A DNA stretch of 32,811 nucleotides, from contig CACOAB010000008.1 of NCBI GenBank assembly GCA_902625125.1, positions 1 through 32,811 of the forward strand, in the 5' to 3' direction. The first letter of the stretch is position 1. Every line of letters begins with the position of its first letter. The position numbers and the translations under genes were made by a program. Of this stretch, positions 28,438 through 32,811 are shown in pieces. The notes beneath the pieces are model-generated. The model worked only from the letters and a program-made list of their open reading frames with translations, was not told where the DNA came from and did not search any database. The DNA comes from an uncultured Pelagibacteraceae bacterium (GTDB taxonomy: Bacteria > Pseudomonadota > Alphaproteobacteria > Pelagibacterales > Pelagibacteraceae).

Positions 28438-29234
28438 AATACATTTATCTAGCAGCAAGTTCAATAATCTTAGCTTATATTGGGATAACAATCTTTATAT
28501 ATTTTTATCAAAGAAACTTATTATATCACCCAAGTGAAAATAATTATTTAAATGACAAAGTTAGTTTTGAGTATGAAGAACTATTTATAAATACAGATAA
28601 AGGTATTTCACTAAAATCTTGGTTCATAAAAAAAGATTTATCTAAATTTAAAACAATACTTTTTTTTCATGGGAATGCCGGAAATCTCTTAAATAGAGTT
28701 CATAAACTTAATGAGCTTAATAAACTTGATGTAAACATTTTATTAATTTCATGGAGAAGCTTTAGTGGAAATAAGGGAAAACCTTCTGAGAAAAACCTTT
28801 ATCATGATGGTAATAGGGTTGTTGAATGGCTTAATGAACAAGGAATAAATAAAAATGATATTATTCTATATGGAGAGTCATTAGGAACTGGTGTAGCTAC
28901 TGAATTAGCATCAAATAACAAATTTGCTGGAGTTATTCTAGAATCTCCATTTACCTCAATAGCTGATGCAGCAAAAATCTATTATCCGTATTTACCGATT
29001 AATTTATTACTAAAGGATAGATATGACACGAAAAATAAAATCAAAAAAATTAATTCTCCAATTTTAATTATGCATGGAAAAAAAGATAATATAGTTCCTC
29101 AAAAAATGGGGCTAGAACTTTTTGAAATCGCTAACAATCCTAAATCTAGTTATTTTCCTGATAACGATGATCATATGATGGAATATAATGATGTCTTACT
29201 CTTAAATATCAAAAATTTTATTAATCAACTTTAA
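28434..29234 (+). CDS. membrane-anchored alpha/beta hydrolase (ABHD13/17, Bem46-like)
   Basis: 266 residues. An N-terminal membrane anchor (about 4-25) is followed by the YQRNLLYHPSE motif that marks this group. The oxyanion part is FFHGNAGN (77-84), the nucleophile Ser149 is in YGESLGTGVA, and Asp218 (MHGKKDNIVP) and His247 (NDDHMMEY) complete the triad. Related proteins include ABHD17 depalmitoylases, but bacterial members have no agreed substrate; lipids or thioesters are likely. It overlaps the EamA gene by ATGA and its stop overlaps the convergent ftsY stop by four bases, so no terminator fits between them. Confidence 0.9.
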   Translation: MKYIYLAASSIILAYIGITIFIYFYQRNLLYHPSENNYLNDKVSFEYEELFINTDKGISLKSWFIKKDLSKFKTILFFHGNAGNLLNRVHKLNELNKLDVNILLISWRSFSGNKGKPSEKNLYHDGNRVVEWLNEQGINKNDIILYGESLGTGVATELASNNKFAGVILESPFTSIADAAKIYYPYLPINLLLKDRYDTKNKIKKINSPILIMHGKKDNIVPQKMGLELFEIANNPKSSYFPDNDDHMMEYNDVLLLNIKNFINQL

Positions 29235-30151
29235 TTTTCAATTCCTAATAAAGCTTTTGAAAAATATTCAGCATTAAAGGGTTGCAAATCAGTTTCCTTC
29301 TCACCCATTCCGACCGCAACAATTGGAAGTTTAAATTTTTTACAAATTGCTAAAACAACTCCCCCCTTTGCAGTACTATCAAGTTTAGTAATAATTAAAC
29401 CCGTCAAATCATGAATCTTACTAAATTCTTCAACTTGGTTAAGTGCATTTTGTCCTGTAGTTGCATCTAAAACAAGAATTACCTCGTTAGGATATGAAGG
29501 GTCGATTTTTTTTAGGACATTAATAATTTTTTTGTACTCTTCCATTAAATTTTTTTTGTTTTGAAGTCTTCCCGCTGTATCAATCAAAGCCACATCGATT
29601 TCATTTTTTTTTGCAAACTCAGCAGTTTTAAAAGCCACAGAAGCTGGATCACTATTGATTTCGGATTTAATAATATCAACTTTGACTTTTGCAGCCCAAA
29701 CTTGCAACTGATCTATGGCAGCTGCTCTAAAAGTATCCGCAGCCCCAAAAACAACAGATCTATTATTATCTTTAAAGTATTTTCCAAGTTTTCCGATACT
29801 TGTTGTTTTTCCAACTCCGTTTACTCCAGATACAACTATCACAGCAGACTTTGCATTTCCCATCAGGCTTAGATCTTTTTCATACTTTTGAAGATTAATT
29901 GCTAATTTATCTGCTATCAGTTTTAAAATTTCTTTATGATCTTCTAATTTTTTATCAACTTTGAAGTTTTCAAAATCTCTTCTTAATTCTTTTGCAACTT
30001 CTACTCCCGCATCAGATGTAATGATTAATTCTTCAAATTCTGTAAGAACATTTTCATCAATTTTTTTTTTGGAAAATATATTTTTAAAGCCTGTAGAGAG
30101 CCCATCTGAACTTTTACCTAATCCTATTTTAAATTTATCAAATAAACCCAT
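29231..30151 (-). CDS. ftsY: signal recognition particle receptor FtsY
   Basis: 306 residues. The N domain (1-95) starts MGLFDKFKIGLGKSSDGL, and the acidic A domain of E. coli FtsY is absent, as in many other bacteria. The GTPase G domain has GVNGVGKTTSIGKLG (109-123), AADTFRAAAIDQL (137-149), DTAGRLQNKKNLM (191-203), TKLDSTAKGG (255-264) and the C-terminal GMGEKETDLQPFNAEYF. FtsY docks Ffh-ribosome complexes at the inner membrane. The ATG directly follows the dapF stop, so both are read from one message. The partner ffh is just over 1 kb away on the other strand. Confidence 0.96.
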   Translation of the reverse strand: MGLFDKFKIGLGKSSDGLSTGFKNIFSKKKIDENVLTEFEELIITSDAGVEVAKELRRDFENFKVDKKLEDHKEILKLIADKLAINLQKYEKDLSLMGNAKSAVIVVSGVNGVGKTTSIGKLGKYFKDNNRSVVFGAADTFRAAAIDQLQVWAAKVKVDIIKSEINSDPASVAFKTAEFAKKNEIDVALIDTAGRLQNKKNLMEEYKKIINVLKKIDPSYPNEVILVLDATTGQNALNQVEEFSKIHDLTGLIITKLDSTAKGGVVLAICKKFKLPIVAVGMGEKETDLQPFNAEYFSKALLGIEN

Positions 30152-30982
30152 TTAGATCTCAAGGCTAGTATGTTTTATTTCTGAAACTGGACCTCTCATA
30201 AATATATTGAGATCTGCATCCAATTTAATATTTAAATTACCTTCCTCAAATTTAATATTGATATCATTTTTAGTTAACTTCTTGACAAATGCTGCAACAG
30301 CAGTAGCACAAGCAGCTGTTCCACATGCTTTTGTTAATCCTGCGCCTCGTTCCCAAACATTGACTGTAATATTATTTTCGTCATCAATTTGAGCAAATGT
30401 AACATTTGTTCTGTTAGGGAATAATTCATGAGTCTCTATTTTTGGCCCTAATATTTTTAGATCATATTTAAAACAATCTTTAACAAAAAAAATTATATGA
30501 GGGTTCCCTACATTGAGGCTAAATCCATCAGTGAATTTTTTACCATCAATATCTAGAGTTATATTTTTTTGATCTAACTTTTCTTTTAATGGGATTTTAT
30601 TCCACTCAAATATAGGCTTCCCCATTTCTAGTTGAACATCCGCCTCCCCTACAATTTTTGCATTAAGTAATCTATTATTTGTTTTTAATTTAATCTCTTT
30701 ATTATTTAATTCTTTGCTTAACAAGTAAGCAACACACCTACTTCCATTTCCACATGCACTTACCTCACCTCCATCTGAATTAAAAATGGTTATTGGAAAA
30801 GTATTATCAATTTCTTTTTCAATAAATATTATTTGATCAAATTCAATGTTACGATGAAAAGATTTTAGATTTCCCAAATGAACTATTTTTTCTTTAGATA
30901 TATGTATGGATTTTTCCCTTCTATCTACGATAATAAATCTATTACCTAAACCATCCATTCTAAAAGCTTTAATCAAAGGCAT
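30152..30982 (-). CDS. dapF: diaminopimelate epimerase
   Basis: 276 residues, standard length. It interconverts LL- and meso-diaminopimelate for lysine and peptidoglycan. The two catalytic cysteines are Cys77 (ACGNGSRCVAY) and Cys220 (KACGTAACATAVA). Other signatures are DGLGNRFIIVD near the N-terminus, NVGNPHIIFFV, and NRTNVTFAQI. The usual GNDF is GNRF here, a small change next to the conserved Asn. It is the first gene of the dapF-ftsY unit and is divergent from ffh over 167 bases. Both motif halves are intact, so it should be active. Confidence 0.96.
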   Translation of the reverse strand: MPLIKAFRMDGLGNRFIIVDRREKSIHISKEKIVHLGNLKSFHRNIEFDQIIFIEKEIDNTFPITIFNSDGGEVSACGNGSRCVAYLLSKELNNKEIKLKTNNRLLNAKIVGEADVQLEMGKPIFEWNKIPLKEKLDQKNITLDIDGKKFTDGFSLNVGNPHIIFFVKDCFKYDLKILGPKIETHELFPNRTNVTFAQIDDENNITVNVWERGAGLTKACGTAACATAVAAFVKKLTKNDINIKFEEGNLNIKLDADLNIFMRGPVSEIKHTSLEI

Positions 30983-31041
30983 ACTAGTAGATTAGTATAA
31001 TTATTCATTGACTTTTAAAACCCCAAATTGTAGTTTCCACG

Positions 31042-31149
31042 AACTTTCCGCAAATACCTAAGTTTTTGCGGTACTCTTAAAAACAAGAGTGTCGACACTA
31101 GTCAGCGAAGGTTCGCCCACTAGTGCGATAGGTGTTGGACGTTATAAAA
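31042..31149 (+). ncRNA. candidate structured leader RNA of ffh
   Basis: Three hairpins follow one another before the ffh ATG: CCGCAAA (31048-31054) with TTTGCGG (31065-31071); ACTCTT (31073-31078) with AAGAGT (31085-31090); and CACTAGT (31096-31102) with ACTAGTG (31119-31125), the last capped by GCGA/TCGC (31105-31108 with 31113-31116). ACAC (31095-31098) can alternatively pair with GTGT (31132-31135), and GTC (31091-31093) with GAC (31138-31140), which would bury the GGAC nearest the start. AACTT (31042-31046) can pair with AAGTT in the first loop (31060-31064). About half of 31091-31140 is G+C, far above the surroundings. A TATAAT at 30996-31001 could drive it. A regulatory leader is my inference; it may correspond to a motif already proposed for SAR11. 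Confidence 0.6.
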
Positions 31150-32502
31150 ATGTTTGAAAACTTAACAAATAAATTAGAAAATATTTTTTCTAAACTAAAA
31201 AGTGCACCTTCCTTAACGGAAGAACAAGTGGACTCTGGCTTGAAAGAAATACGCTTAGCTTTATTAGAAGCTGATGTAGCACTGCCAGTTGTGAAAGATT
31301 TTATTGAAAATGTAAAACCAAAAGCTATTGGCCAAGAGATCATTAGATCAACTTCACCTGGTCAAATGATAGTAAAGATTGTTTACGATGAATTAGTAAA
31401 CATACTTGGTTCAAAGAATGAAGAGATCAATCTAAAAGCAGTTCCACCAGTTTCTATATTATTAGTAGGTTTACAAGGGTCAGGAAAAACAACTTCAGCA
31501 GCTAAATTAGCTAAGTTAATTGAAAAAAATCATAAAAAAAAAGTTATGCTTGTGAGCTTAGACGTGTATAGACCTGCAGCTCAAGAGCAATTAAAATTAT
31601 TAGCTGATAAAAATAATATACAAAATTTACCAATCATAGAAAAACAACAACCTATTGATATTACTAAAAGAGCACTCAACGCTGCAAACCTTAGTGGTTC
31701 AGATGTTATAATTTTCGATACCGCTGGTCGAACGCAAATAGATTTACCAATGATGTCTGAGATTAAACAAATAAAAGATTTAACAAAACCTGCCGAAACT
31801 ATTCTAGTTGCCGATTCTTTAACAGGTCAAATAGCTGTAAACGTTGCAAAAGAATTTGATACAGCAGTCAATCTTTCATCAATTATTTTAACCAGAGTTG
31901 ATGGAGATGCGCGAGGTGGAGCTGCTTTGAGCATGAAACACATCACTGGCAAACCTATAAAATATATTGGAGTCGGAGAAAAAGTTTTTGACTTTGAAAT
32001 GTTTCATCCCGACAGGTTAGCTAACAGAATCCTTGGAATGGGTGATGTGGTTACGCTTGTCGAAAAAGCAGCACAAGATTTAAGTGAAGAAAAAATTAAA
32101 GAAACTGAGGAAGAGCTTAAACAAGGTATTTTTACAATGGACTCCTATCTCTCACAATTAAGGCAAATGAAAAAAATGGGAGGTATGGAAGGAGTTATGT
32201 CGATGTTACCTGGAGTAAATAAAATGAAAGCTAAAATGGATCAAGCTAATATAGATGAAAGAATGCTTATTGAAAATGAGGCCATAATTTTATCTATGAC
32301 AAAAAATGAAAAAGAAAATCCAAAAATTATTAGCGGTTCTAGAAAAAAAAGAATTTCCCAAGGCGCTGGAGTAGATGTTTCCAAAATAAATAAGTTACTT
32401 AAACAATTTAAAATGATGTCAGATATGATGAAAAAGATGTCACAAGGAAAAAAAATTCCATCTGGGATGATTCCGGATGAAATGCTCAATAAACTAAAAT
32501 GA
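31150..32502 (+). CDS. ffh: signal recognition particle protein Ffh
   Basis: 450 residues from the ATG at 31150. The frame stays open to a GTG at 31132, but MFENLTNKLENIF is the canonical Ffh start, and the extra six codons lie in the structured leader. The N domain is followed by the GTPase motifs GLQGSGKTTSAAKLA (107-121), DVYRPAAQEQL (138-148), DTAGRTQIDLPMM (190-202) and TRVDGDARGGAAL (248-260). The C-terminal M domain is methionine-rich (MKKMGGMEGVMSMLPG and KMMSDMMKKMSQGKKIPSG). It binds signal peptides and 4.5S RNA, with FtsY as receptor. It is followed 10 bases on by rpsP, the usual head of the rpsP-rimM-trmD-rplS operon. Confidence 0.97.
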   Translation: MFENLTNKLENIFSKLKSAPSLTEEQVDSGLKEIRLALLEADVALPVVKDFIENVKPKAIGQEIIRSTSPGQMIVKIVYDELVNILGSKNEEINLKAVPPVSILLVGLQGSGKTTSAAKLAKLIEKNHKKKVMLVSLDVYRPAAQEQLKLLADKNNIQNLPIIEKQQPIDITKRALNAANLSGSDVIIFDTAGRTQIDLPMMSEIKQIKDLTKPAETILVADSLTGQIAVNVAKEFDTAVNLSSIILTRVDGDARGGAALSMKHITGKPIKYIGVGEKVFDFEMFHPDRLANRILGMGDVVTLVEKAAQDLSEEKIKETEEELKQGIFTMDSYLSQLRQMKKMGGMEGVMSMLPGVNKMKAKMDQANIDERMLIENEAIILSMTKNEKENPKIISGSRKKRISQGAGVDVSKINKLLKQFKMMSDMMKKMSQGKKIPSGMIPDEMLNKLK

Positions 32503-32512
32503 AAGGTAAAAA

Positions 32513-32811
32513 ATGTTAAGAATAAGACTATCAATGGGAGGAGTAAGGAAAAGACCGATATATAAAATAGTTATAGCAGATGGAAGATATCCGCGAGACG
32601 GTAAATTTATTGAAAAAATTGGTTCTTATAATCCATTACTTCCAAAAGATAAAAAGGAAAGAATAAAGATAGAAGCTGAGAGAGTAAAATATTGGATGAG
32701 TAAAGGTGCTCAACCGACTCTTAGAGTTTCTAGACTTTTAGGAGAACTTCAAATAATGCCAATGCCAAAGCCAGGAAATAATCCTCAAAAAGCTATTCCT
32801 AAAAAGGATAG
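32513..32811 (+). CDS. rpsP: 30S ribosomal protein S16, 3' end beyond window
   Basis: The ATG at 32513, with AAAGG five bases upstream, opens 99 complete codons to the window edge. The start MLRIRLSMGGVRKRPIYKIV, then ADGRYPRDGKFIEKIGSYNPL and ERVKYWMSKGAQPTLRVSRLL is unmistakably S16. Core S16 is about 80 residues, so most of the conserved domain is inside; the remaining Pro/Lys-rich tail is an extension that continues past the edge, as in many alphaproteobacteria. S16 is a primary 30S assembly protein. It is co-transcribed with ffh. Confidence 0.97.
   Translation, partial: MLRIRLSMGGVRKRPIYKIVIADGRYPRDGKFIEKIGSYNPLLPKDKKERIKIEAERVKYWMSKGAQPTLRVSRLLGELQIMPMPKPGNNPQKAIPKKD

Follow-up and report, generated by a model that had tools for sequence, protein, structure and literature searches.

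What does a strongly folded RNA leader do in front of ffh, and which of the genes behind it does it serve? The question arises in the genome of an uncultured Pelagibacteraceae bacterium, in a stretch of 32,811 nt (contig CACOAB010000008.1) that we refer to as the window. The hairpins H1, H2 and H3 occupy the intergenic stretch between dapF, on the minus strand, and ffh (Table 1). Positions 31091-31140 have a G+C content of 56%, whereas the window as a whole has 31.3%, and 0.15% of 50-nt windows are as high. The minimum free energy (MFE) of 31043-31149 is -34.0 kcal/mol, compared with a mean of -22.4 for shuffled sequences (z -3.47, with 1 of 200 shuffles doing as well), and the fold of 31000-31160 reaches z -3.98, with 0 of 200 shuffles as good. 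Alignments of Ffh from relatives begin at residue 1, fitting an ffh start at ATG 31150, and the leader is therefore non-coding. The first-pass annotation of this DNA had proposed both the G+C-rich three-hairpin leader and this start codon, and both proposals hold: the structured element is real and well conserved. On the minus strand, ftsY (29231-30151, with its match at 29246-29845) and dapF (30152-30982) stand head to head with ffh, and the two signal recognition particle (SRP) GTPase genes, ftsY and ffh, are neighbours in the window; dapF was assigned by eye and from the gene order given by Meyer et al. (2009).

Table 1. Features of the leader and the genes behind it (positions in the window)
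Feature	Position	Strand	Basis and remarks
TTGACT, probable -35 box	31008-31013	+	Conservation of TTGAC
TAGTTT, weak candidate -10 box, 17-nt spacer	31031-31036	+	Read from the sequence
ffh leader	Three hairpins within 31048-31125	+	MFE fold
H1 (CCGCAAA / TTTGCGG)	31048-31071	+	MFE fold; pairing in SAR11
P2 (CGGTACTCTT / AAGAGTGTCG, 10 bp)	31069-31094	+	Inner part is H2, 31073-31090
H3, RF01793 core	31096-31125	+	Rfam match; covariation; C.C 31103/31118, A.C 31104/31117
Tail, CGATAGGTGTT followed by GG, proposed pause signal	31126-31138	+	3' end U31136, next G31137, 11 nt from H3
ffh	31150-32502	+	Open reading frame; first gene of the operon here; start backed by relatives
rpsP (ribosomal protein S16)	32513-32811, cut by contig end	+	Open-ended reading frame; by eye and match to other rpsP

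The element is already known, because Rfam matches it as RF01793 ('ffh') and Meyer et al. (2009; PMC2704228) describe the corresponding motif. The first-pass annotation had suggested a comparison with the Rfam models and had mentioned a survey of Pelagibacter RNAs, leaving open whether this element was in it. The Rfam match covers 31081-31133 and the complete model (1-52) at 42.4 bits, above the cut-off of 35, and the survey, which worked with 'Ca. P. ubique', itself related to the present genome, does contain the element as its 'ffh motif'. Meyer et al. (2009) present a single bulged hairpin before ffh, with covariation and two conserved C residues, which was seen in metatranscriptomes and ranges over SAR11, Rhodobacterales, Sphingomonadales and Rhizobiales; in the portions of the article used here, the motif is described as unlike the Ffh site (helix 8) of 4.5S RNA and as having no known function. 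H3 is such a bulged hairpin 5' of ffh and carries both conserved C residues (C31103 and C31118).

RF01793 is found in 268 of the 297 genomes of the order, with one copy each among the matches listed. When 20 of the 29 genomes lacking it were checked, the 5' end of ffh was present in none: two had a piece of ffh cut at a contig start, and the others had no ffh or FtsY-like matches of ~30% identity. In the class Alphaproteobacteria, the Rfam model reaches 112 of 387 genomes, and a broader model of H3 plus the tail, which we built from 87 sequences and call R1, matches 253 of the same 387, as well as 76 of 80 named rpsP loci. A sample of the phylum gave 93 matches in 299, every matching row lying in the class, whose share of the 299 is not given. 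Thirty weaker R1 matches, from 30 families, stand directly before ffh in 27 cases, before rpsP in two and near neither in one. The element is not universal, because some genomes in which ffh and rpsP are linked have no model match (e.g. G317, G318, G322 and G323); weak remnants just before ffh are seen in some model-negative genomes (L437, L439 and L451). The class search gave two R1 matches each in G302, G361, G428 and G495, and in G302 (7% contamination) the second copy is followed by rpsP. A plasmid intergenic small RNA of Mesorhizobium huakuii 7653R, MH_s5, has also been labelled RF01793 (PMC5596092). Spread in viral contigs was considered and rejected; a 14-base pattern occurred in at least 120 stretches, which we took as chance matches.

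For the comparisons below, we used 140 loci found with RF01793 (41 SAR11 and 99 others, L269 being dropped as a duplicate of L210) and a wider set of 244, which leaves out L369 (a partial match) and L434 (a match not near ffh or rpsP). Among 87 diverse sequences, 94.6% of the cells of H3 are paired, both sides change in 11 of its 12 pairs, and its covariation of 0.437 compares with at most 0.077 for slid controls. The stem carries a C.C mismatch in 139 of the 140 loci, for which the H3 finder rewarded C at the mismatch, and in 213 of the 244; the finder used for the named and weak loci gave no such reward, and the mismatch is less well kept in these weakest sets (52/75 named and 22/29 weak loci). 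Among the exceptions are 16 named loci, most of them from sphingomonads, that have C-G at that position, and 12 sphingomonad-type named loci, counted by eye, have the C.C one pair further in. The following position is A.C in 86 of the 140 loci and otherwise also C-G, U-A, G.U or G-C. An extension of H3 by AUCG/CGAU was discarded, because one of its pairs is broken in 7 of the 41 SAR11 leaders and the adjacent pair in 10.

The Rfam structure shows the stretch before H3 as unpaired, and P2 is absent from it. In our alignments, 68 of 127 non-redundant loci have a contiguous helix ending 1 nt before H3, compared with 26.3 in shuffled sequences, and all six pair types occur at nearly every position of this abutting helix. 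A gap of 0 is seen in 17 loci only; gaps of 2-5 are also raised, as would be expected if the same helix were trimmed. The lowest-energy upstream hairpin lies at the 1-nt gap in 41/41 SAR11 leaders and 46/99 others, the energy gain outside SAR11 being modest (mean -11.4 versus -9.4 in shuffles). Within SAR11, H2 shows compensatory changes on both sides in 5/5 pairs, and 90.5% of the cells of outer P2 are paired. By counts of compensatory changes, H2 and, in the 87 sequences, H3 both pass the covariation test that had been proposed for this leader.

The outer part of P2 (CGGU/AUCG) vies with H1 for the bases CGG. H1 itself is paired in 96.9% of cells across the 41 SAR11 leaders, with a compensatory change in one of its seven pairs, and the calculated energies in the window are -27.6 kcal/mol for H1, H2 and H3 together versus -23.8 for P2 and H3. 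In 7 of the 41 leaders, the C shared by the two helices is U, and its partners in H1 and in P2 are both A; such matched changes in two exclusive helices are the trace expected from alternative helices, and may be one event. The pair adjoining the shared C is G.G in 35 of the 41, and L300, L313 and L320 have scant room for H1 or H2, as in some families. A switch, as the first-pass annotation had suggested, is plausible on these alignments in view of this perhaps single matched change; the pairings which that annotation had named are not general. One of them, a long-range helix (P0) that closes all three hairpins and would mask the nucleotides just ahead of the start codon, belongs to the MFE fold of the window and was rejected for want of support across SAR11, where the mean best helix is 6.07 and 25 of 200 partner swaps are as long. 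The pairing of the H1 loop AAGTT with an upstream AACTT is not conserved in the alignment, judged by eye.

The gene order points past ffh. The next gene downstream is ffh in 133 of the 140 loci, rpsP in five, and a contig end in two, so that 138 loci have the element next to one or other of these genes and pointing the same way. On the same strand and within ~4 kb, rpsP lies downstream in 137 of the 140, which are all those that could be judged, and of the 30 genomes with weak matches 29 likewise have it downstream. Among the loci examined, none that has the element at ffh was seen to have rpsP elsewhere. Downstream of the element, at ~1.66-1.86 kb, at least 23 SAR11 contigs begin; the end of the window itself falls within rpsP. 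The SAR11 S16 protein (window 32513-32811; L466, L468 and L469) has a repetitive Ala/Glu/Pro-rich C-terminal tail, with 150-177 aa in all, and this repeat may break assemblies.

The five rpsP-adjacent loci form one family, which named records place in the PS1/OCS116 clade (genomes G335, G440, G520, G587 and G648, 93-97% complete; loci L211, L235, L266-L268 and L326-L330). None of the five genomes has an Ffh match. An SRP54-type GTPase domain is found in 0/5 of them, compared with 5/5 SAR11-order genomes and 14/14 named controls, and there is therefore no FtsY; 4.5S RNA is found in 0/5, compared with 5/5 SAR11-order genomes, two of these below the cut-off. Judging from these gene complements, the five genomes appear to have lost the whole signal recognition particle, and our search found no literature on the PS1 clade and SRP. 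These genomes amount to a natural deletion that parts the element from Ffh. Two further genomes are split: in G370, rpsP follows the element after 58 nt, and ffh, on another contig, lacks it; in G531, the element stands before rpsP with ffh on another contig, cut at its 5' end. The model matches in G370 and G531 are weak (27.4 and 31.5 bits). Separately, G339 and G353 (93% and 100% complete) have rpsP, no Ffh match at E 0.001 and no model match.

The first-pass annotation had suggested that the leader may sense Ffh. A feedback leader sensing Ffh or SRP would fit the position of ffh as next gene in most loci; it becomes very improbable when the element is kept before rpsP in genomes with no Ffh, FtsY or 4.5S RNA found, and stands at rpsP and not at ffh in G370. 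The H3 model also gives no above-chance match at the SAR11 4.5S loci L261-L265, and the passages of Meyer et al. (2009) on the motif report no likeness to helix 8. Mimicry of Ffh's RNA site was rejected as well, the element neither resembling 4.5S RNA under the H3 model nor occurring only with ffh. This evidence makes Ffh a matter of the element's history and not of its function.

Behind rpsP, the SAR11 locus L466 continues with trmD and rplS. Both genes also follow in L478 and L476, L477 has rimM/rplS (with trmD identified by eye), and in the split genomes examined rimM, trmD and rplS come after rpsP. The element thus heads a ribosomal-protein operon, with rpsP in 137 of 140 loci and rplS in L466, L476, L477 and L478. 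In L466, L468 and L469, the SAR11 operon is rpsP-trmD-rplS without rimM, and leuC, leuD and a leuB-like gene follow (the leu genes by eye). RimM was dropped as a candidate effector, as no rimM lies between rpsP and trmD in these three loci, again by eye.

Two of the operon's products could act on the leader at the level of translation, S16 or L19 binding P2/H3 and blocking ribosomes or destabilising the mRNA while RNA polymerase is untouched. That the element stays with the rpsP-trmD-rplS part, and that the C.C mismatch resembles a recognition site, would suit such an autogenous operator, which we nevertheless regard as unlikely. H3 and the start codon are separated by anything between 17 and 292 nt (median 38), which makes it unlikely that blocking the ribosome site at a set distance is the general mechanism, and ffh lies between the element and rpsP in 133 of the 140 loci. 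Searched against E. coli rrnB (16S/23S/5S), the H3 model finds no rRNA look-alike, its best match being 6.2 bits and antisense, and rRNA mimicry was accordingly rejected for this model and operon. Translational control would also leave unexplained a fixed U followed by G (U/G below) in the tail. Of the other effectors named in the first-pass annotation, a ribosomal protein is possible, and the leader comparisons gave no evidence for a metabolite.

Other features around H3 may bear on transcription. TTGAC occurs within 140 nt upstream of H3 in 140/140 RF01793-found, 51/74 named and 20/29 weak loci, 11% being expected from shuffles. It stands 36-115 nt before H3 in all 140, so H3 is made soon after initiation. 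Matches to a -10 box are modest in SAR11 (mean 3.15 of 6), and a generic sigma-70 scan called no promoter at TTGACT 31008-31013; from the position of the boxes, transcription would probably start near 31041-31045.

Downstream of H3, the tail is informative for ~14 nt, its conservation peaks at nt 10-13, and beyond nt 14 there is almost no information outside SAR11. U/G falls at nt 11 or 12 in 39/41 SAR11, 91/99 other, 60/75 named and 15/29 weak loci, or 130 of the 140 RF01793 loci, and is less frequent at positions 15-25. It was not built in, because the SAR11 and other sets came from the Rfam model, which has an 8-nt tail. The pause register it suggests is not unique, since U/G is also raised at nt 8 in SAR11 (34/41) and at each of nt 5-8 elsewhere (17-28 of 99). 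Alternatively, the tail may serve to bind a protein.

In class I pauses, a hairpin stands 10-12 nt before the RNA 3' end, with U or C at -1 and G at +1. The window has this geometry at U31136 and G31137, 11 nt after H3. In the E. coli his leader sequence, the hairpin is followed by CGATGTGTGCT and then GGAAG, where the U preceding GG is presumably U102 of the his pause. Pausing in his has been placed at U102, before G103 (PMC9098449). Against the SAR11 tail profile, the his tail reaches 11.27 bits (P 4.9e-5 for random 13-mers), and against the profile of the other loci 5.71 bits (P 2.1e-3), a comparison chosen after the tail was seen and made with a single pause signal. No other position in the his stretch scores as well as the true register.

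U-rich tails raise another reading, in which H3 and its tail form an intrinsic terminator that polymerase passes in certain conditions. An 8-nt stretch with at least 5 T, beginning 0-2 nt after H3, is found in 51/99 other, 42/75 named and 16/29 weak loci, compared with 18, 13 and 4 when the counted stretch is shifted by 12 nt. A distinct leader RNA was seen in marine metatranscriptomes (Meyer et al., 2009), and an 'ffH leader RNA' has been reported from Bartonella; a separate short RNA of this kind is what termination would leave. Among the E. coli pieces searched, the H3 model scores highest at the terminator of the his attenuator, with only 9.8 bits (E 0.57). Attenuation by termination as the main function is nonetheless distinctly unlikely, as a U-run is present in only 6 of the 41 SAR11 leaders, a scan finds no terminator in the leader of the window, and the strongest conservation, at nt 10-13, lies beyond what a terminator U-tract needs. 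The same reports of small RNAs, together with the Rfam type 'sRNA', could be read as a free small RNA acting in trans from its own promoter. This is improbable for an element that in 138 of 140 loci adjoins, and is co-oriented with, ffh or rpsP, and whose conservation stops 14 nt after H3 without any sign of a conserved seed.

The leader also has two hairpins 1 nt apart, the second imperfect, with a promoter close by, a layout that resembles put RNA of phage HK022. An RNA that modifies RNA polymerase for terminator read-through, as put does, is highly improbable here: the likeness is one of layout, and we identified no terminator for such an RNA to overcome.

We therefore favour, tentatively and at somewhat less than an even chance, a cis-acting, promoter-proximal pause or attenuation leader of the (ffh-)rpsP-(rimM)-trmD-rplS operon that would act mainly on RNA polymerase. 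H3 would fold in the RNA exit channel and hold the polymerase at the U of U/G, as in class I pauses of the his-leader type, and the pause site would set the flow of polymerase into the operon. About half of the non-SAR11 tails contain enough U to look like a terminator, so pausing may pass into termination; with a U-rich spacer, some transcripts may also end at the site, in keeping with the short leader RNA that others have described. H3 may in turn be tuned by which of H1 and P2 forms, in SAR11 and some other families. Pausing leaves the C.C mismatch unexplained, and the mismatch suggests a bound factor, for which it is a possible recognition site; as effector, we would guess S16, TrmD or L19, because in the loci examined their genes and the element remain together.

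A bolder statement, which we hold with still less confidence, is that the 'ffh motif' is misnamed. It would be the control leader of rpsP-trmD-rplS in Alphaproteobacteria, with a his-type pause, partial termination in some lineages, gating by H1/P2 and a C.C mismatch read by a protein of the operon or a Nus-type factor. A 2024 review states that nothing is known on the control of E. coli rpsP/trmD (PMC10931766), which would make it a rare gap among ribosomal-protein operons. The literature searched gave no function for the ffh motif, including a pause. If true, our reading would be the first described control of the rpsP-trmD-rplS operon, and an RNA that occurs in no fewer than 253 of the 387 alphaproteobacterial genomes sampled would carry its own polymerase pause.

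Compared with RF01793 as published, H3 is the motif's single bulged hairpin at the same site before ffh. The published structure is without P2/H2, H1 and a U/G tail past 8 nt, and its reported range excludes Caulobacterales and Rhodospirillales, whereas our broader model reaches further. The rpsP linkage found here is absent from the account of the motif in Meyer et al. (2009). The comparison shows a TTGAC box, P2 at 1 nt from H3, a near-invariant C.C, an 11-12-nt spacer to U/G and linkage to rpsP, all of which go beyond the published single hairpin. Autogenous leaders of ribosomal-protein operons may mimic the rRNA binding site, and with the H3 model no mimicry was found; like such leaders, the element stands at the front of an operon, here one that includes two ribosomal-protein genes. 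The E. coli his leader differs in that H3 is longer, has the C.C mismatch and is without a leader peptide seen, and pausing here is predicted. The two share the class I arrangement, a hairpin and then U followed by GG at 11 nt, as in the tail of the window, and CGAU and UGYU are common to the his pause and the SAR11 tail.
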